Source: Arthrobacter globiformis
Lineage (GTDB): Bacteria; Actinomycetota; Actinomycetes; Actinomycetales; Micrococcaceae
Length of the DNA stretch: 64,000 nt
Direction: 5' to 3'
Assembly: GCF_003261175.1 (NCBI RefSeq)
Contig: NZ_QLNP01000099.1
Coordinates: 1-64,000, forward strand
Shown here: positions 44,510 to 52,885 of the stretch, in pieces
Position numbering within the stretch: position 1 is the first letter of the stretch
Layout: every line of letters begins with the position of its first letter
Made by a program: the position numbers and the translations under genes
The notes under the pieces: model-generated
Database searches by the model: none
Seen by the model: only the letters and a program-made list of their open reading frames with translations
What the model was told of the DNA's origin: nothing

Positions 44510-44983
44510 ATGACCGCACCGCCACGGCCCGACCGGACCCTGATCGTAGTTCTCGTCATCATTGCCGGTCTCGTCGCCGTGGCGCTCGCTGTGGTCTTTT
44601 TCCGGGGCGAGCCGGAGCCGCTTGCTGAGAATACGCCGGCGGGTGTGGTCCAGCGGTATGCGGCCGCCGTCCTGAACAATGACGCCGCGGCAGCCGCACG
44701 CTTCACGACTGATGGACGCTCCGGACAGCCGGACCGGCCGTGCGTGCCGGCGGACCGTCCTGAGACGGGCACGCTCCGGGTCACGCTGGCCTCCACCGTG
44801 GAGCATGCCGACACTGCGGACGTTCACGCCGTCCTGGCCACCTCCTACGGCAACGGTCCGTTCGGGAATTCCGAATATGAGACCGAGGCCGTTTTTAACC
44901 TTGAGCGGGTGAACGGCAACTGGCTCGTTGCCACTGCCCCATGGCAGCTCACCATCTGTCCCGTTCCGGCGGCGAAGCCGTGA
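44510..44983 (+). CDS. Single-pass membrane protein with NTF2-like domain (suspected)
   Basis: A 157-residue protein with an N-terminal membrane anchor (TLIVVLVIIAGLVAVALAVV) and an outside domain with NTPAGVVQRYAAAVLNNDAA, VHAVLATSYG and NLERVNGNWLVATAPWQL. That helix-then-strands order resembles NTF2-like accessory domains. Cys residues near both domain ends may bond. The stop overlaps the next gene (GTGA), so the pair is co-translated. Confidence 0.72.
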   Translation: MTAPPRPDRTLIVVLVIIAGLVAVALAVVFFRGEPEPLAENTPAGVVQRYAAAVLNNDAAAAARFTTDGRSGQPDRPCVPADRPETGTLRVTLASTVEHADTADVHAVLATSYGNGPFGNSEYETEAVFNLERVNGNWLVATAPWQLTICPVPAAKP

Positions 44984-46800
44984 GTACCGTCCGGCCTGGC
45001 TCACGCGAATCATCATCGCCGGCGGTGCCCGCGGTGCCCGCGGTGCGGCGGCTGGTGGTCTTTGTACTCCTCTTTGTCCTCGTGCTGATCGGCGCTTCCG
45101 GCGTGGGCGGCCTGTTTGAGCGGCTGCTTACCTCCGGCGCGGGGCTGGCCGGGAACGACGTCGGCAGCCTCGCCCGGTCCCTTGCGTTTGCGCTGGTCGG
45201 CGGGTCCATGGCCGCGGTCCTGTGGTGGCTCGTGTGGCGCCGGCAGGGGGAAGAAGCGGAGCGCTCCTCGGGTGCCTGGGGGCTGTACGTCTCCGGCGTA
45301 TACATCGTTGCCCTCATTGCTGCGGTTACGGCTGTGCTCGGCGCTGTATCGCAGTTGGTTGGGCTGCTGGCCCGCGCCGCAACCGGCGCGGCGGGTGCGT
45401 TGGGTGAGGGCCTGGAATGGCGTTCGTCCCTGGCTACGGGTGTGGTGTGGGCCGCCGTCTGGGCATGGCACCGGTGGATGTGGCAGCACCGTGGCAAGGG
45501 CCCGCGCCGGCTGGGAACCGTCCCGGCGCTCGCGGGCTCGGTGTTGGGCCTGCTGATAGGTGCCGGCGGGGCCGTGACTGCGCTTGGCAGTCTTCTCGAT
45601 GCGGCGCTGCGTGGGCTGGCAGGTACCCATGACGTGGGATCGCCCTGGTGGGTTTCGGTGCTGCAGTCACTCATCTGGGCCGGCGGCGGATTCCTGGTTT
45701 GGTGGTGGCATTGGGTCTCTGGCGAAGCGCGGCGCCTGTTCTCACCGCTGGCCAACGTGGCCGCGGCGGTCTTCGGAGTGCTTGGCGGCTGCATTACGGC
45801 AATGGCCGGCGCCGTCACAGCCGTGTTCGTCCTGTTGCGGCTGGTACTGGACCGCTCCGAAGACATGATCCGGCTCGTGGATCCCCTTGGCCCCGCGCTG
45901 GCCGCGGCAGCTGTCGGGTGCCTCGTCTGGCGCTACCACGCGTTGCTCACGGCCGCGCGGTCGGAGAAGATGCGGGCGACGGGGCTGCTGCTGGCATCGG
46001 GAGTGGCGGTGGCCGCTGCGGCCTCGGGTGTGGGGGTTGTAGTCAACGCCGCCTTGGGCTTTGCCGAGACAACGCTGGCGGGCACGGGCACGCGCACACT
46101 GCTGCTGGGCGGAATCAGTGCCCTGGTTGTGGGCGGTGCGGTCTGGTGGTGGGCGTGGCAGCCGGCGGACCGCCGCGGATCGGCGAGCGCCGATGATGCG
46201 GGCGGAGCAGATGGTGCAGACGGCCTGCCGGCCCGCGCCGCTGCCGGACGGCGCATCTACCTCGTGGCTATCTTCGCGATCAGCGCCGTCGTGGCCCTGA
46301 TCGCCCTGCTGGTGGTCGGCTACCAGACCTTTGAGCATCTTCTGGACCCGGTGCGCTCTGGAAACCTGGTGGGACGGATCCGGGCGCCGCTCGGACTGCT
46401 GACCTCCACCGCGCTCGTGGCCGCCTATCACTACAGCGTTTGGCGCAGGGAGCGTGTGCTGCCGGCGGAAACCGGCTCACTGCGGGAAACTGGCCGGGTG
46501 CAAGACGCCGGTCCGGTACGGACTGCGCGACGGACGATCGGCCAAGTCGTCCTGGTGACGGGCTCCGATCCTGTTCCGCTGTCACGCGCCATCCACGAAG
46601 CCTCCGGTGCCGACGTGACGGTCTGGCTGCGGTCCGGCCTACCGGCAGGGCCGGATCCGGAACAGCCGGATCCGGAACAGCCGGATGCCGGAACGCTTAT
46701 GGCCGCGCTGGAAGGTGTGAGCGCAGAGCGGGTGCTGGTCGTCGTCGGACCCGGCGTCCGGATCGATGTCATCCCGGTACGCCAACTGGGTAGCAGCTGA
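44980..46800 (+). CDS. DUF5671-type polytopic membrane protein
   Basis: A large membrane protein of about 606 residues with a dozen or more helices in repeated blocks. Each block has a pattern such as SLAFALVGGSMAAVLWWLVW, SLIWAGGGFLVWWWHWVSGE or RAPLGLLTSTALVAAYHYSV, as in DUF5671 repeats. The C-terminal 110 residues are soluble (RTIGQVVLVTGSDPVPLSRA; ERVLVVVGPGVRIDVIPV). A 15-base tandem repeat encodes PDPEQ twice. The start is GTG 44980, overlapping the previous stop. Function unknown. Confidence 0.78.
   Translation: MSTVRPGSRESSSPAVPAVPAVRRLVVFVLLFVLVLIGASGVGGLFERLLTSGAGLAGNDVGSLARSLAFALVGGSMAAVLWWLVWRRQGEEAERSSGAWGLYVSGVYIVALIAAVTAVLGAVSQLVGLLARAATGAAGALGEGLEWRSSLATGVVWAAVWAWHRWMWQHRGKGPRRLGTVPALAGSVLGLLIGAGGAVTALGSLLDAALRGLAGTHDVGSPWWVSVLQSLIWAGGGFLVWWWHWVSGEARRLFSPLANVAAAVFGVLGGCITAMAGAVTAVFVLLRLVLDRSEDMIRLVDPLGPALAAAAVGCLVWRYHALLTAARSEKMRATGLLLASGVAVAAAASGVGVVVNAALGFAETTLAGTGTRTLLLGGISALVVGGAVWWWAWQPADRRGSASADDAGGADGADGLPARAAAGRRIYLVAIFAISAVVALIALLVVGYQTFEHLLDPVRSGNLVGRIRAPLGLLTSTALVAAYHYSVWRRERVLPAETGSLRETGRVQDAGPVRTARRTIGQVVLVTGSDPVPLSRAIHEASGADVTVWLRSGLPAGPDPEQPDPEQPDAGTLMAALEGVSAERVLVVVGPGVRIDVIPVRQLGSS
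46651..46690 (+). repeat. 15-base tandem repeat inside the DUF5671 gene
   Basis: CCGGATCCGGAACAG occurs twice in direct succession (46651-46665, 46666-46680) followed by a partial third copy. The unit is a multiple of three and encodes repeated Pro-Asp-Pro-Glu-Gln, so copy number can change without a frameshift. Confidence 0.75.
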
Positions 46801-47707: not shown

Positions 47708-49270
47708 TTACCTTCCGCCGGGGCCGCGTCCCTGCGTGTACTCTCCGGCCGTGACCGTGCCGAGCTCCGTGGCGCCGTCGAGGGCGCCATCGCCCAGTCC
47801 TGACTGCACCTTCGCCGTGCCCCCGGTGTACACCGTGTACTGCTTTCCTGCTTCGATGCCCCCCGAGGATAGGACCAGCGAGCCGGTGGCTTTGGTGGTC
47901 ACAAAGGTGGCCACGAGCTTGCCGTCCGCGTCGGCCAGCTGCACGGTGGTGCCCGCCGGCACGGTCGAGGCGAAGGTGACCTGCACGCCTGACTGGGTGG
48001 AGCTTGTCCCCGGGGTGACAACCATGCCGGCGCTTCCTGCCGCGGCGACCGTTCCGCCGCTGACTGCCAGCTCGCCGTTGACATCGAGTGCACCGTTGCC
48101 GTTGCTTTCGGGCCCGTTGACCACCACGGTGCCGCCGGAGATGGAGGCGTTGCCGTTGGAGTCCAGGCCGTCGCCCTCGGAATTGATGGTGAGGGAGCCG
48201 CCGGAGATGTCCACGCTGTAGTCGCCCACCGATTCCCCGCCGCCGGGCCCGCCCATGCCGCCCCCTGGCTGGGCAGCGGTTGAGGCGCCGCCGGAGGCGT
48301 TCACGCCGTCATCGGTGGAGGTCACCCAGACCGTGCCGCCGCTGACGGCGATGTGCTGGGCTTCGAGGCCTTCCGACGACTCCGATACAGTCACGGTGCC
48401 GTTCGCGATGGCGAGCTGGTTCTGCGCCTTGACGCCGTCGTCCCCGGCGCTGACAGTGAGCTTGCCGCCGTTGACCAGCAGCCAGCCGCGGCCGTCGTCG
48501 GTGTCATTGTCTGATTTGAAGCCGTCACCGCCGGCGGTGATCTGGTAGGCCCCGTCCAGAAGGACCGCGTAGTCCTTGCCGCGGATGCCGTCGTCGGCTG
48601 CTTTCACTGTGACATTGCCGGCGGCCAGAACCAGGCCGTCCTTGGACACGATGCCGTCGTTGTACTGGCCGGTGACTTGAAGCGAGCCAGTCCCGGCCAG
48701 GGTCAGGTCGGCCATGGAGTAGAGCGCCGCGTTCGGCGCGTCGGTTCCCTGGTCAGCGTACGTGGCAGCGTCCTTGATGGAATTGGTGCTGCCGTCCTCG
48801 AGGAACAGGATGGCCTCGTTGGCGCTCTGGACGACGAACGGTGAGCCTGTTGAGCTGGCGAGGGTCGCGCCGTCGAGGATCACGCGGACCACGTCTTCTT
48901 CGCCGGCAGCGATCACCACCTTGCCGTCATCGAGGGCACCGGACAGCCGGTAGGTCCCGGCGGCGGTGATGGTGACGGTGTCGCCGTCGACCTTTACTCC
49001 GGCGGCGGAGCCCGCCGCCGCGGAGGCGCCGGCCTTGAGCGTGACGGCCACTTCGTTGGCCGCCTCCCAGGTGAGGTCGTCTGCGTCGTAATGCGTGTCC
49101 TCGGAGATCGAGGCTGCCGTCACCATCTGCGTGCTGGACGCTGTGCCGGTGCCCGACTGGCTGCCGGCGGCCGTTCCGTTGGAGGCCGTGCTTCCCGAGG
49201 CGGAGCAGCCGGCGAGGATGAGGGCCAGGGCGAAGGCGGCCACGGAGAAGGTCGTGCTGAATTTGCGCAT
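47708..49270 (-). CDS. Secreted carbohydrate-binding (DUF4353-like) lipoprotein
   Basis: A 520-residue lipoprotein (VAAFALALILAGCSA, lipobox LAGC). After a Gly/Ser/Thr-rich tether comes a long right-handed beta-helix-like region in which turns recur: ATYADQGTD, SKDGLVLAAGNVTVKAADDG, GKLTVSAGDDGVKAQNQLAI, SSEGLEAQHIAVSGGTVWVT, SGGSLTINSEGDGLDSNGNA. These DDG/EG turns typify carbohydrate-binding DUF4353 proteins found next to VTC and CotH genes. It is last in a five-gene unit and likely sits on the cell surface. AAGGA upstream of the ATG. Confidence 0.82.
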   Translation of the reverse strand: MRKFSTTFSVAAFALALILAGCSASGSTASNGTAAGSQSGTGTASSTQMVTAASISEDTHYDADDLTWEAANEVAVTLKAGASAAAGSAAGVKVDGDTVTITAAGTYRLSGALDDGKVVIAAGEEDVVRVILDGATLASSTGSPFVVQSANEAILFLEDGSTNSIKDAATYADQGTDAPNAALYSMADLTLAGTGSLQVTGQYNDGIVSKDGLVLAAGNVTVKAADDGIRGKDYAVLLDGAYQITAGGDGFKSDNDTDDGRGWLLVNGGKLTVSAGDDGVKAQNQLAIANGTVTVSESSEGLEAQHIAVSGGTVWVTSTDDGVNASGGASTAAQPGGGMGGPGGGESVGDYSVDISGGSLTINSEGDGLDSNGNASISGGTVVVNGPESNGNGALDVNGELAVSGGTVAAAGSAGMVVTPGTSSTQSGVQVTFASTVPAGTTVQLADADGKLVATFVTTKATGSLVLSSGGIEAGKQYTVYTGGTAKVQSGLGDGALDGATELGTVTAGEYTQGRGPGGR

Positions 49271-49324
49271 GGTGGTTCCTTGGAGGTCTTGGGGGGTCTT
49301 GGGGAGTCGAAAGCAGGGAGCGGG

Positions 49325-50083
49325 TCAGGCTGCGGGGGCCAGCCGCATGCTGTTCCGGAGCGTCCGGTTCCAGCGGTTGGCCGGCAGGTGCGGGTGCAGC
49401 GCGGCCATCCCGGTGGCGAACTTGGAGATCCTGGACGGCCGCACACCGTGTCGCCACAGGTGCCTGTCCAGCGGTCCGGCGGCCGACGCTGATTTGGTCT
49501 CGAGCACTACGCTGCCCGCCAGTACCCACGGCTCGCCGTCCCCGGTCTGCCAGGTGACGTCCGAGTCGATCGTTGCGCGGCTGCCGGACTCCGGGAGATA
49601 GAGGGTGGTCCGGCGGTAGCGGGTTTCCAGCACAGGACCCAGGGCGCCGTCCGGAACGTCGCCAACGGCCGTGGCCAGGGTTTCGTTGACGTACTCCAGG
49701 CCTTCCGCGGTGAGCCGGGAGCGGTCCGCGATGTCATAGGGGATGCGTTCCTTGACGGTGGCCGCCCGTGTCCCCTCGGTCTTGACCTCGAGGAAACTGG
49801 TGCCGGTGTCCGCATAGGTCCGGGTGCGGATCTTGTAGCGGCGGCGACGGCCGCGGGCCGCCAGCATGTAGCTGTCCAGCTGCGGAGTGTCGAAGTAGAC
49901 GGAGTCGTAGGCGAAGGACCGGAGGCCGTCCATTTCGAGGACCCGGGCCTGGCCGGCGAAGGTTGCCAGCACCTGCCGGGCAGTCGCGGCGGGGACCACG
50001 TACTTCCGGTCCACCCGGGTCTGCAGGGCGGCTTCTGCATTGAGCTCCTGGAGGCCGATCGGCGGCAGTCCGGCGAGGCTCAT
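49325..50083 (-). CDS. VTC-domain polyphosphate polymerase-like protein
   Basis: A 252-residue tunnel-fold (VTC/CYTH-like) protein with no membrane helix. Conserved basic and acidic positions are visible: TRVDRKYVV, YDSVYFDTPQLDSYMLAARG, RRRRYKIRTRTY, FLEVKTEG, KERIPYD, LETRYRRTTLY, VLETKSAS and RISKFATGM. In yeast VTC these residues hold polyphosphate and ATP. The start at 50083 has GAGGAG six bases upstream; an ATG at 50116, overlapping the previous stop, has a poor site. It likely works with the adjacent DUF4956 membrane protein. Confidence 0.86.
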   Translation of the reverse strand: MSLAGLPPIGLQELNAEAALQTRVDRKYVVPAATARQVLATFAGQARVLEMDGLRSFAYDSVYFDTPQLDSYMLAARGRRRRYKIRTRTYADTGTSFLEVKTEGTRAATVKERIPYDIADRSRLTAEGLEYVNETLATAVGDVPDGALGPVLETRYRRTTLYLPESGSRATIDSDVTWQTGDGEPWVLAGSVVLETKSASAAGPLDRHLWRHGVRPSRISKFATGMAALHPHLPANRWNRTLRNSMRLAPAA

Positions 50084-50112
50084 GAATGTCTCCTCGGTAG
50101 GAGGTGTGGCCC

Positions 50113-50727
50113 TCATGCCGCACCTGCCGCGGCGGAAGCTGCTACACCCGGGCCGTCCGGGCCGACCAGGCGGTTCCCGCGGGCTGGGAGGCAGGCGTAG
50201 CGGACGTCCACGATGGTCTTGTCGTTCACCAGGTCCAGTTCCTGCACGGTGACCGTGTGGACCTTCGCGGCGAGCAGCTCCTCAAGCCGTGCGGTGAGTT
50301 CGTCCTCGCGGGAAATGGCGCGGTCCAGGACGACGGTCTGGTGCCGGTAGGCGGGAAGGACCCACTCGTGGTCGCCGACGAACATGACGGCCAGCACCAG
50401 TCCCATGAGGGATAGGGTCAGCCAGACCGGTTCGACGCCAACGCCCGAGATCAGGCCCAGGGCCAGCGCGGAGAAGTAGTAGGCCACCTCGTGCTGGGCC
50501 AGTTCGGTGGAACGGAGACGGATGATCGAGAGAACCCCGAAGAGGCCCAGCCCAAGTCCCAGGCCGGCGGCGGAGCCGGAGAGCGCCGTGGCCACGGCCA
50601 GGACGCCGATATTCATCCCGAGATAGGACACGGCCAGGTCCCTGCGCCGGTGGCGGCGGATGTAAAGCGCGAAGGTGAGCACGCAGATGGCGATGACGTC
50701 TGCGGCGATAAGTATCAGGTGGTTCAT
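50113..50727 (-). CDS. DUF4956 membrane protein
   Basis: A 204-residue protein with an N-terminal block of four or so helices (LILIAADVIAICVLTFALYI, LGMNIGVLAVATALSGSAAG, VAYYFSALALGLISGVGV, LSLMGLVLAVMFVGDHEW) and a soluble C-terminus (ELTARLEELLAAKVHTVTVQ, ELDLVNDKTIVDVRYACLPA). The cytosolic RLRSTELAQHEVAYYF loop is characteristic. DUF4956 genes regularly neighbour VTC genes and may act as the membrane channel or anchor for the polymer. GGAGA precedes the ATG. Confidence 0.86.
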   Translation of the reverse strand: MNHLILIAADVIAICVLTFALYIRRHRRRDLAVSYLGMNIGVLAVATALSGSAAGLGLGLGLFGVLSIIRLRSTELAQHEVAYYFSALALGLISGVGVEPVWLTLSLMGLVLAVMFVGDHEWVLPAYRHQTVVLDRAISREDELTARLEELLAAKVHTVTVQELDLVNDKTIVDVRYACLPARGNRLVGPDGPGVAASAAAGAA

Positions 50728-50752
50728 GGGATTCTCCGGGTCTCGTGATGGG

Positions 50753-51832
50753 CTACTTGCTACGATTCACGGCCAAGCTGTGCCGGGGCTGTGCCGGAAC
50801 AAGGTCTGGTTTATGACCTTTGGTGAAAAGGAACCGCTGCTGGACGGCGTAGCTCACGGCGAACAGGGCGACTTCGGTGAGTAGCTTGGCGGGCAGGTCC
50901 GCGACGCCGGCGCCTGCCAGCGCCGTCAGGAGTGCGTAGTTCGCCGCCAGCATGGAGAACACGAGGGCGACGTATCGGGCGGCCGTGGCGCGGGCAGGCT
51001 TCTCGCCGCCGTGTTTGAACACCAGCCGGCGGTTGATCAGATAGTTGGCCGTGGCGCTCAGGCAACGGGCACCGACGACGGCCGCCAGAACCGAGTCGGT
51101 AGCCGCGCTGAGGGCAAGGAAGGCGACGGTGTCGATCAGGAAGCCGGCGAGGGACGACAGCAGGAACTTCAGCAGCGGGGCATAGATGCGCACCGAGTCC
51201 GCGAGCGGCCGGAAGTGCGATCCGGAGTTGCGGTCCAAATAGATGGTGGCGATGCCCACACAGGCGATGCCGTAGCCGGCCGTCGTGGCCTCAAGCAGGA
51301 GGTTCAGTTCGTATTCGTAGCGCTCACCGCCTACGGTCAGGAGCCAGGGCAGCATGGCTGCAGGGTAGCCGCGCAGCCCCGTCTGTGTGTCCGCGATGCG
51401 CTCGCCGGTGGCCAGCCGGAACAGCAGCCGGGTGGCGGCGTTGCCGAAGCGGCTGCGTGCGGGGACGTCGCCGGCGAAGGTGCGGGTGCCGAGCACCATG
51501 GAGGCGGCGTCAGTGCCGGCCACGCCGGCCACGCGCAGGATGTCCACGACGCTGTGCTGGCCGTCGCTGTCTGCACACACCACGTCCTGGCCGGGGAAGC
51601 GGTCCAGAATGAAGCGAAAGCCGGTTTTCAGTGCGGAGCCCTTGCCCAGGTTTGCCGGATAACTGATGACATGCGCGCCGGCCCGGCGCGCGCCGTCGAA
51701 AATCTGCCCGTAGGCCGGCCCGCTGCCGTCATCCACGACGACGAGACTGAGGGCGGGGTCTGCTGCGCGGATCGCGCCAATCACTTCAAGAAGCTGGATG
51801 TCCGGCTCGTAGGCGGGGATCAGGATGATCAT
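50753..51832 (-). CDS. GT2 glycosyltransferase fused to a GtrA-like membrane domain
   Basis: A 359-residue fusion. Residues 1-210 are a family 2 glycosyltransferase (MIILIPAYEPDIQLLEVIGA, LVVVDDGSG, ADSDGQHS with the DxD-type motif, ADTQTGLRGYPAAMLPWLL). Residues 225-355 form four helices of the GtrA family (FLLSSLAGFLIDTVAFLALS, SATANYLINRRLVFKHGGEK, AVSYAVQQRFLFTKGHK). It resembles polyprenyl-phosphate glycosyltransferases with a flippase-type partner. It starts nine bases after the glycosidase gene, in one operon. Confidence 0.9.
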   Translation of the reverse strand: MIILIPAYEPDIQLLEVIGAIRAADPALSLVVVDDGSGPAYGQIFDGARRAGAHVISYPANLGKGSALKTGFRFILDRFPGQDVVCADSDGQHSVVDILRVAGVAGTDAASMVLGTRTFAGDVPARSRFGNAATRLLFRLATGERIADTQTGLRGYPAAMLPWLLTVGGERYEYELNLLLEATTAGYGIACVGIATIYLDRNSGSHFRPLADSVRIYAPLLKFLLSSLAGFLIDTVAFLALSAATDSVLAAVVGARCLSATANYLINRRLVFKHGGEKPARATAARYVALVFSMLAANYALLTALAGAGVADLPAKLLTEVALFAVSYAVQQRFLFTKGHKPDLVPAQPRHSLAVNRSK

Positions 51833-51841
51833 GGCGGGACT

Positions 51842-52885
51842 TCACTTGCCGATGTACAGGATGTCAGAGGTGCCGCGCTCGCGGTTTGCACCCAGCGGAT
51901 TGTTGACCAGTGCGCCGTCGAAATACATGGTGGAGGAGCCGCCGCCGTCGAGGTTGTAGGCCGTTTCTGCGCCCAGATCCTTCATGATCTGCGCCATTCC
52001 CGTCATGGTCACGCCGGTGCTGTAGCCCGGGCTGCGGCCGTCAGCCACCACAAAGACCAGGTGGTTGGTGCCGATGAGCCCCACGGCGGTGCGCGGCTGC
52101 TCGCCCTGGATGGAATGGTTGCCGAAGTTGGTGTCCACCTCGACGTCCTCGATGCCGTCCACGATCTGGCTGTCCTGGACGATTGCCGGCCCGAAGGACA
52201 GGGTGTTCCAGACGCCGTCGGCGACCAGCTGCTCGGCGTTGGTGGCGGTTTCGTCGTAGACCTTCACGGTTCCGTCCCGGTAGAACGCCAGCCCCTGGCG
52301 GGCGCCCTCGTCGCGGTAGACAACACCGTTGCGGATGACGATGCCGGTGTCCCGGAAGCCGTAGTAGTCGCCGTTGACGGCGAAGATCGCGTTGTGGGCA
52401 GCCGCGATTTCCGAAGTGGTCTGGGTGATGTTCTCACCGAAACTGTCGTTGGCGAACGCGGACTTGAGCGTCGTGGCGTCGTCAAGGGCGACGTCGGCAA
52501 CGTAGTAGGTGACCGTGCTGTCACCGCTGCCGGTGACCACCGTGGAGATGTTGATGTTGGTGCCGTCGGCCGTGTAGGAGGTGTCCGTGACAGAGGCGGG
52601 CGATCCCACTGTCGTGGTCCCGGACGACGCGCCCTGGGCTGCCTCGTAGGCGGACACATCGGAAATCTCCACGTGCTGCACCACGAACCTGTCCAGCGCC
52701 CAGGCGGTGGCGCCGCCGGCGGACAGCGTGAGGGCGAGGGCTCCGGCGAGGATGGCCCGGCGCGTCGGCCTTGTCTTGCCGCGCTCGCGGGCTGGGCCGG
52801 GCGGGCCGGGGTACCCCGCTTCGCCGGGTTGCCGGGCGACGTCGGAGGAAATTTCTTTGCTGCGGGTGTTCTGCTGTGAGGTCAT
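51842..52885 (-). CDS. Phosphodiester glycosidase (NAGPA-domain) membrane protein
   Basis: A 347-residue protein with one N-terminal membrane anchor (RAILAGALALTLSAGGATAW) and an outside domain of the NAGPA family. Motifs: IFAVNGDYYGFRDTGIVIRN, PRTAVGLIGTNHLVFVVADG, GAETAYNLDGGGSSTMYFDG. The family removes GlcNAc from phosphodiester-linked sugars or trims exopolysaccharide. It is first of five genes on the minus strand and sets the theme of the cluster: surface phospho-glycan metabolism. Confidence 0.88.
   Translation of the reverse strand: MTSQQNTRSKEISSDVARQPGEAGYPGPPGPARERGKTRPTRRAILAGALALTLSAGGATAWALDRFVVQHVEISDVSAYEAAQGASSGTTTVGSPASVTDTSYTADGTNINISTVVTGSGDSTVTYYVADVALDDATTLKSAFANDSFGENITQTTSEIAAAHNAIFAVNGDYYGFRDTGIVIRNGVVYRDEGARQGLAFYRDGTVKVYDETATNAEQLVADGVWNTLSFGPAIVQDSQIVDGIEDVEVDTNFGNHSIQGEQPRTAVGLIGTNHLVFVVADGRSPGYSTGVTMTGMAQIMKDLGAETAYNLDGGGSSTMYFDGALVNNPLGANRERGTSDILYIGK

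Follow-up and report, generated by a model that had tools for sequence, protein, structure and literature searches.

Relation to described systems

A gene trio encoding a DUF4956 protein, a poly-phosphate polymerase and a CotH protein has been described as accessory to Gram-positive pel operons (PMC7112168, 2020; this and all other papers given by PMC accession are represented here by excerpts), and for the trio SIR_1592-1594 of Streptococcus intermedius the excerpt states that the authors' analyses failed to find the three-gene arrangement beyond the Pel locus (PMC12345266, 2025). The five-gene cluster of the present study, located in a stretch of 64,000 nucleotides from Arthrobacter globiformis (contig NZ_QLNP01000099.1; the whole stretch is termed the window in the following), resembles the pel accessory set in that the same DUF4956 and VTC families are clustered with an exported protein; it differs by the presence of a Cthe_2159-family lipoprotein instead of CotH and by the addition of a NAGPA-family phosphodiester glycosidase and of a fusion protein composed of a family 2 glycosyltransferase (GT2) and a GtrA domain (see Table 1). 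According to the comparative analyses, the cluster is composed of two separable modules: a DUF4956-VTC core, often accompanied by an exported partner, and a tight pair of NAGPA and GT2-GtrA that is sometimes located elsewhere in the genome. PelG, the only Pel marker used, had no match in the window genome or in any of 149 genomes of the same family (the family sample, window genome included), and a Pel link was rejected for this sample; five of its 50 DUF4956-VTC places have an adjacent CotH gene, with no PelG in those genomes. Since PelG is absent while CotH or Cthe_2159 (the latter at 18 of the 50 places) adjoins the core, the trio of DUF4956, VTC and exported protein looks like a more general envelope module, of which the five-gene form would be a new version.

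Other described systems share parts of the cluster. The yeast VTC complex (Vtc4) likewise has a tunnel domain with the main active-site residues and a membrane partner; yeast-type complexes contain SPX and DUF202 membrane domains, whereas Pfam shows neither in the five window proteins, and the membrane part is here a separate protein of another Pfam family. In transmembrane glycosylation systems of the CsbB-GtcA-YfhO type, GT2 and GtrA proteins form the donor half and a GT-C enzyme is the last part (PMC8035078). The GT2 and GtrA parts recur in the present locus, fused in one chain; unlike in those systems, the sole recurrent third neighbour is NAGPA (80/80 loci, the best 80 of 590 relatives), though an unlinked GT-C enzyme may exist. 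The Clostridium perfringens locus NELoc-2 (two VTC genes and CotH) likewise has CotH and a putative glycosyltransferase gene in the vicinity of its VTC genes; it differs in its other partner genes and is associated with disease strains, no mechanism being given in the excerpt (PMC2879425). For the five-gene unit or the NAGPA and GT2-GtrA pair, no paper was found in the open-licence literature, searched mostly by title and abstract opening.

Conservation of the DUF4956-VTC core

DUF4956 was detected in 47 of the 149 family genomes and VTC in the identical 47; neither occurred in 102 genomes and none had one alone, each family being spread over 16 of 32 genera (all co-occurrence counts are taken over related genomes, and Fisher values are not true probabilities). 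At all 50 places of the family sample (the window and 49 others) VTC was located on the same strand within 600 bases of DUF4956, and it adjoined DUF4956 at 39 of 40 places in a phylum sample of 396 genomes (DUF4956 in 44; 40 of the 45 places outside the window were examined, leaving out G246, G294, G442, G267 and G421). DUF4956 preceded VTC in the family sample, and VTC preceded DUF4956 in another part of the phylum sample; among the control genomes, the same three of 14 carried both genes. A sequence-only reading of the window had proposed one conserved unit with a VTC polymerase core, to which NAGPA and GT2-GtrA add phosphodiester cleavage and sugar transfer, and had named the lack of a conserved neighbourhood in related genomes as one finding that would speak against it. 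The neighbourhood is conserved far beyond chance, and the core with its added activities is supported; the single unit gave way to two modules, since NAGPA and GT2-GtrA can sit away from DUF4956-VTC. Bacterial VTC proteins are annotated as polyphosphate polymerases, and their constant membrane partner DUF4956 is a concrete candidate for an export route. As the control genome of Corynebacterium glutamicum has matches for DUF4956, VTC and CotH, this question is directly testable.

A response regulator and a histidine kinase were encoded no more than 7 kb from DUF4956 at 24 of the 50 places in the family sample and 15 of the 40 in the phylum sample (e.g. L036, L087, L089, L100, L101); no such pair was labelled beside the cluster of the window. 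In a quick and rough DUF4956 tree of 141 rows with many long branches, the attached state requires at least seven changes and the choice between Cthe_2159 and CotH at least six. Spread by plasmids was unsupported: two of 72,556 plasmid records, each a very large replicon, had DUF4956 relatives. At one place (L067:7035-7998), VTC is split into three pieces of open reading frame (ORF) next to an intact DUF4956, a decaying gene or a sequencing error.

Tunnel and membrane proteins of the core

A profile built from 26 VTC proteins ranked yeast Vtc4 (1.5e-21) above Vtc2 and Vtc3. We take the active-site list of the Vtc4 tunnel to be K200, R264, R266, K281, K294, R361, R373, E426, K455 and K458; eight of these are kept in the MAFFT map of the window protein (K27=K200, R86=R264, R88=R266, K101=K281, R158=R361, R169=R373, E195=E426 and K221=K458, the catalytic equivalent), which in addition pairs K197 with K428, and K294 is kept (as K111) only in the profile alignment. 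The basic tunnel residues noticed in the initial reading are therefore real, eight basic residues (K27 to K221) aligning with yeast Vtc4. Applied to the window protein, the acidic-patch motif of AtTTM3 finds basic residues at two positions (R23, K197) and an acidic one at a third (D25). K458 is named catalytic in Vtc4, and a tunnel hydrolase has glutamates in place of four basic Vtc4 residues (PMC4641920). A PP_kinase (PPK1-type) match is also present in the window genome, so that VTC would not be the sole polyphosphate enzyme there and would have a job other than bulk storage.

In an alignment of 28 diverse DUF4956 members, Y22, R70 and R72 were invariant. The AlphaFold2 model of the window protein consists of five helices followed by a beta-alpha-beta-beta (ACT-like) tail (predicted local distance difference test 77, predicted template modelling score 0.55); an ACT domain has been reported in the S. 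intermedius homologue (PMC12345266). The mean number of lysine plus arginine residues in 30 members was 4.6 in loop 1-2, 2.1 in loop 3-4 and 2.2 in the segment after helix 5, and zero in loops 2-3 and 4-5; based on these charge counts and the positive-inside rule, R70, R72 and the tail are predicted to face the cytosol. The best Foldseek matches of the model to solved structures were an RNA ligase (0.028) and, at chance level, the ACT-bearing TyrA (0.034) and aspartate-kinase domains (0.5 to 0.9).

The third protein, probably exported

The Cthe_2159 protein of the window carries the lipobox LAGC and matches a solved relative (4peu) at E 2.4e-34; binding of acidic polymers is known for the family, and the window lipoprotein is a candidate surface binder of such polymers. 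Same-strand Cthe_2159 genes adjoined DUF4956-VTC at 18 of the 50 family places and 19 of the 40 phylum places, same-strand CotH genes at 5 of 50 and 9 of 40, and both proteins at one phylum place; allowing either strand and a distance of up to 5 kb, Cthe_2159 or CotH was present at 23 of 50 and 33 of 40 places, respectively. At the level of whole genomes, 23 of the 24 family genomes with Cthe_2159 (of 149) and 11 of the 12 with CotH fell inside the 47 with DUF4956-VTC. The initial reading had named CotH as a usual companion of VTC and DUF4956; in the window genome (99.98% complete) CotH had no match at all, so that CotH as an essential part is ruled out there.

In a crude scan for motifs, 34 of 38 Cthe_2159 and 21 of 24 CotH sequences had a hydrophobic N-terminal segment, and a lipobox was present in 28 of the 38 and 12 of the 24, some of the misses being truncated or over-extended ORFs (L078 and L079 show a lipobox by eye). 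Because most sequences carry these features, the third protein most likely acts outside the membrane. A single 790-aa protein (L090:5563-7935), in which VTC is followed by a basic linker and a membrane segment and then by CotH, fits a location of VTC inside and of CotH outside; it occurs in one genome only, and a lost stop codon may account for it.

The NAGPA and GT2-GtrA pair

For the second module, the best 80 of 590 confirmed NAGPA relatives were compared (obtained by a contig scan with a NAGPA alignment and biased to close kin). A six-frame profile search found GT2-GtrA directly 3' of NAGPA in all 80 loci (truncated in L121, about 120 codons); tblastn gave 79 of 80 as adjacent, its no-overlap rule being the probable cause of the one miss. 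Twelve loci apparently without GT2-GtrA in a first ORF tally, L178 among them, proved to be an ORF-calling artefact, the pairing being recovered by tblastn and the six-frame search; a NAGPA::GT2-GtrA fusion in L178 (731 aa) was likewise dismissed, as it has no Pfam GT2 domain in its middle and reads like a wrong frame. This strict pairing suggests a substrate for bacterial phosphodiester glycosidases, namely the lipid-linked sugar made by the neighbour. For the window NAGPA, E-values of 8.5e-9 to 1.6e-7 were obtained against solved NAGPA enzymes and of 2.6e-11 against an exported bacterial protein; the window protein keeps the core motifs RTAVG and NLDGGGSS in the alignment to a solved NAGPA enzyme. 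Owing to a twin-arginine-like hydrophobic segment at its N-terminus, TRRAILAGALALTLSAGG, read by eye (a hydropathy scan reported no membrane segment), it is probably exported. The nearest NCBIfam models of GT2-GtrA are polyprenyl-phosphate-sugar synthases, all far below cut-off, and the fusion protein is predicted to make and flip a polyprenyl-phosphate sugar.

DUF4956 was present in 52 and VTC in 50 of the 80 loci, and all five genes were collinear in 41 if DUF4956 had to lie within 1.2 kb of GT2-GtrA and in 43 if up to 3 kb was allowed (43 by tblastn too). These 43 were labelled Arthrobacter (23), Pseudarthrobacter (6), Paenarthrobacter (6), Microbacterium (4), Cellulomonas (2), Virgisporangium (1) and Sporosarcina (1); the other DUF4956-bearing loci include three that run off the contig after DUF4956 or VTC, one without Cthe_2159 (L191) and five with DUF4956 on the opposite strand. 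The locus labelled Sporosarcina beigongshangi (L181), with 65.6% G+C and a five-gene cluster accompanied by CotH and a two-component pair, is probably mislabelled or contaminated.

DUF4956 was missing from 28 NAGPA loci, and 24 of these 28 genomes encode it elsewhere; 76 of the 80 loci lie in DUF4956-encoding genomes, compared with 44 of 396 genomes in the phylum and 47 of 149 in the family sample. Besides the pair itself, no gene occurred in more than seven of the 28 loci (one set of seven being scattered and a second consisting of an antisense ORF that overlies GT2-GtrA). A recurrent GT-C neighbour did not appear among the loci, for which ORF calls were imperfect and some contigs short, and no genome-wide GT-C search was made. 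As no other neighbour of the pair recurs, NAGPA is the best candidate for the enzyme using the flipped sugar. In the family sample, the NAGPA subfamily (above 400 bits, a threshold set by us) occurred in 14 of 149 genomes, 13 of which have DUF4956, VTC and Cthe_2159; the exception, G085, has a decayed-looking locus (L202:8382-11973) in which NAGPA, response regulator and histidine kinase are all in pieces, with one short GT2-GtrA piece, and neither DUF4956 nor VTC.

Proposed function and rival explanations

We tentatively favor, as a possible reading that falls somewhat short of probable, a translocating polymerase of polyphosphate type that is coupled to a lipid-phosphate-sugar cycle. The polymerase would consist of two proteins, VTC and DUF4956: phosphate from ATP would be polymerized in the cytosolic VTC tunnel, as in yeast Vtc4, and the growing anionic chain would be fed to the cytosolic mouth of DUF4956, marked by its invariant arginines, and pass through the membrane. 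Outside, the Cthe_2159 beta-helix lipoprotein could hold the chain or a glycan partner, perhaps via calcium, a slot that the kinase-fold CotH would fill in other lineages. A cytosolic VTC, a membrane-embedded DUF4956 and an external binding or kinase-fold protein would be the layout expected of a translocating polymerase; in yeast, polyphosphate is made in the cytosol by VTC and moved into the vacuole (PMC4641920). In parallel, GT2-GtrA would make a polyprenyl-phosphate sugar and flip it, and the exported NAGPA would remove or transfer the sugar outside and free the carrier lipid, replacing the usual GT-C transferase. Action on the flipped lipid is suggested because a polyprenyl-phosphate sugar is a sugar-1-phosphodiester, the bond class of NAGPA; the enzyme may thus act on the predicted product of its neighbour instead of trimming the VTC product, as the initial reading had assumed. 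Together, both machines would build and glycosylate a phosphate-rich surface polymer. Gene content, linkage, co-occurrence and the kept active-site residues are direct observations and topology and export signals are sequence readings, while the polyphosphate product, its way through DUF4956, the lipid-linked substrate of NAGPA and the acceptor at the surface are inferred. A bolder version combines a bacterial polyphosphate translocase, whose external chain would serve as a Cthe_2159-held surface polymer or as phosphoryl donor enabling extracytoplasmic CotH kinases to act where ATP is lacking, with a GT-C-free glycosylation cycle of NAGPA and GT2-GtrA in which the phosphodiester glycosidase would use the flipped polyprenyl-phosphate sugar as donor; in this full form it appears very unlikely.

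Several observations weigh against the coupled polymerase and sugar cycle. GT2 synthases of this kind typically invert, giving a beta product, whereas alpha linkages are the substrate of human NAGPA. In the window VTC, K455 of Vtc4 is replaced by Arg and T198 by Asp (D25), and K294 is unpaired in the MAFFT map; the tunnel family also includes hydrolases and cyclases (PMC4641920), and no report of a bacterial VTC-domain protein making polyphosphate was found in the literature excerpts. Regarding a channel, Foldseek of the DUF4956 model against solved structures gave no match at E <=0.001. In S. intermedius, mutants of the DUF4956 homologue (more Pel) and of the CotH homologue (less Pel) were altered in Pel level and both aggregated less in one medium, no such change being reported in the excerpt for the VTC mutant (PMC12345266). 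Linkage has its exceptions as well: one 6-kb contig (L091) has DUF4956 and no VTC was found on it, 27 of the 50 family places and 7 of the 40 phylum places have no Cthe_2159 or CotH gene within 5 kb, G087 (85% complete, 390 contigs) has Cthe_2159 and G007 has CotH without DUF4956, and in G142 NAGPA, GT2-GtrA and Cthe_2159 stand in a row far away from the DUF4956-VTC pairs. The genomes of L121, L158, L161 and L185, two of them metagenome-assembled, have the NAGPA pair and show no DUF4956, and the baseline for the 76 of 80 loci is given by the family and phylum samples, not by the families of the 28 loci.

The mutant phenotypes of S. intermedius would agree with a role of DUF4956-VTC in regulating or assisting the synthesis of surface polysaccharide, without any exporter: a triphosphate or nucleotide signal would be bound or turned over by VTC and passed on to envelope enzymes through the ACT-like tail of DUF4956. 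The ACT domain of the S. intermedius homologue and the two-component genes near many of the DUF4956 places point in the same direction, as does the beta-alpha-beta-beta tail of the window model, whose ACT matches are at chance level only. However, the VTC tunnel keeps the polymerase residues of Vtc4 including the equivalent of the catalytic K458, and PelG is absent from the whole family sample, so that Pel itself is not the target here; we consider this regulatory or accessory role unlikely.

Two further alternatives concern the sugar module. NAGPA and GT2-GtrA might only recycle carrier lipid, NAGPA hydrolyzing the polyprenyl-phosphate sugar outside, without a sugar acceptor, as the counterpart of the cytosolic UshA. 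Indeed, UshA (YqjL) of Bacillus subtilis is cytoplasmic and reported to free undecaprenyl phosphate from monophosphate-linked sugars (PMC11898649), and the 28 loci without DUF4956 show no recurrent third gene next to the pair. A synthase next to a hydrolase of its own product would, however, be a futile cycle unless separately controlled, and the co-occurrence of Cthe_2159 in 13 of the 14 NAGPA genomes suggests a surface target; mere recycling seems quite unlikely. The walls of Arthrobacter contain poly(glycosyl 1-phosphates), for which no paper was found in the open-licence literature, and NAGPA could trim sugar-1-phosphate from such phosphate-bridged wall glycopolymers while GT2-GtrA, together with a GT-C enzyme from another locus, decorates that polymer. 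This would agree with the bond class indicated by the family name, and gene numbers in known systems of GT-A enzyme, GtrA flippase and GT-C enzyme show that the parts are often not neighbours (PMC8035078); it leaves unexplained, however, why nearly all NAGPA loci (76/80) lie in DUF4956-encoding genomes, and we judge it decidedly unlikely.

Locus layout and gene calls

The five minus-strand genes and their families were recovered as described in the sequence-only reading, with ORFs at the positions of Table 1 and Pfam assignments above the curated cut-offs for all five proteins; NCBIfam models had no match at E 0.001 to the NAGPA, DUF4956, VTC and Cthe_2159 proteins.

Table 1. Genes of the cluster in the window, in 5' to 3' order on the minus strand.
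Protein	Length (aa)	Position	Strand	Pfam match
NAGPA-family phosphodiester glycosidase	347	51842..52885	-	PF09992, E 6e-40
GT2-GtrA fusion (DPM-synthase-type glycosyltransferase domain, then GtrA membrane domain)	359	50753..51832	-	PF00535 (Glycos_transf_2), E 1.4e-9; PF04138 (GtrA_DPMS_TM), E 1.6e-12
DUF4956 membrane protein	204	50113..50727	-	PF16316, E 6.6e-60
VTC-domain protein (triphosphate tunnel family), ATG at 50083	252	49325..50083	-	PF09359, E 6.5e-27
Cthe_2159-family beta-helix lipoprotein	520	47708..49270	-	PF14262, E 7.7e-74

The intergenic gaps of 9, 25, 29 and 54 bases follow from the coordinates as previously given, except that the third depends on the VTC start chosen: it holds for the ATG at 50083, which is preceded by AGGAG, but not for a second in-frame ATG upstream at 50116, which overlaps the DUF4956 stop by 4 bases. 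In some relatives, such as L037 and L043, the first VTC start likewise overlaps DUF4956 by 4 bases. Promoter and terminator scans of the cluster gave nothing above chance. The window genome (4.88 Mb, 88 contigs; the completeness of 99.98% is the tool's figure) has one DUF4956 match. The closest named relatives of the cluster include Arthrobacter spp. (NAGPA 90% and DUF4956 95% in A. globiformis L122, NAGPA 91% in its best segment in L138). Since only three of eight sampled genomes of the same genus carry the cluster (the window genome counted), it is an accessory locus. On the plus strand, positions 44941-46800 of the window encode a 619-aa protein with three DUF5671 stretches, for which no link to the cluster was seen.

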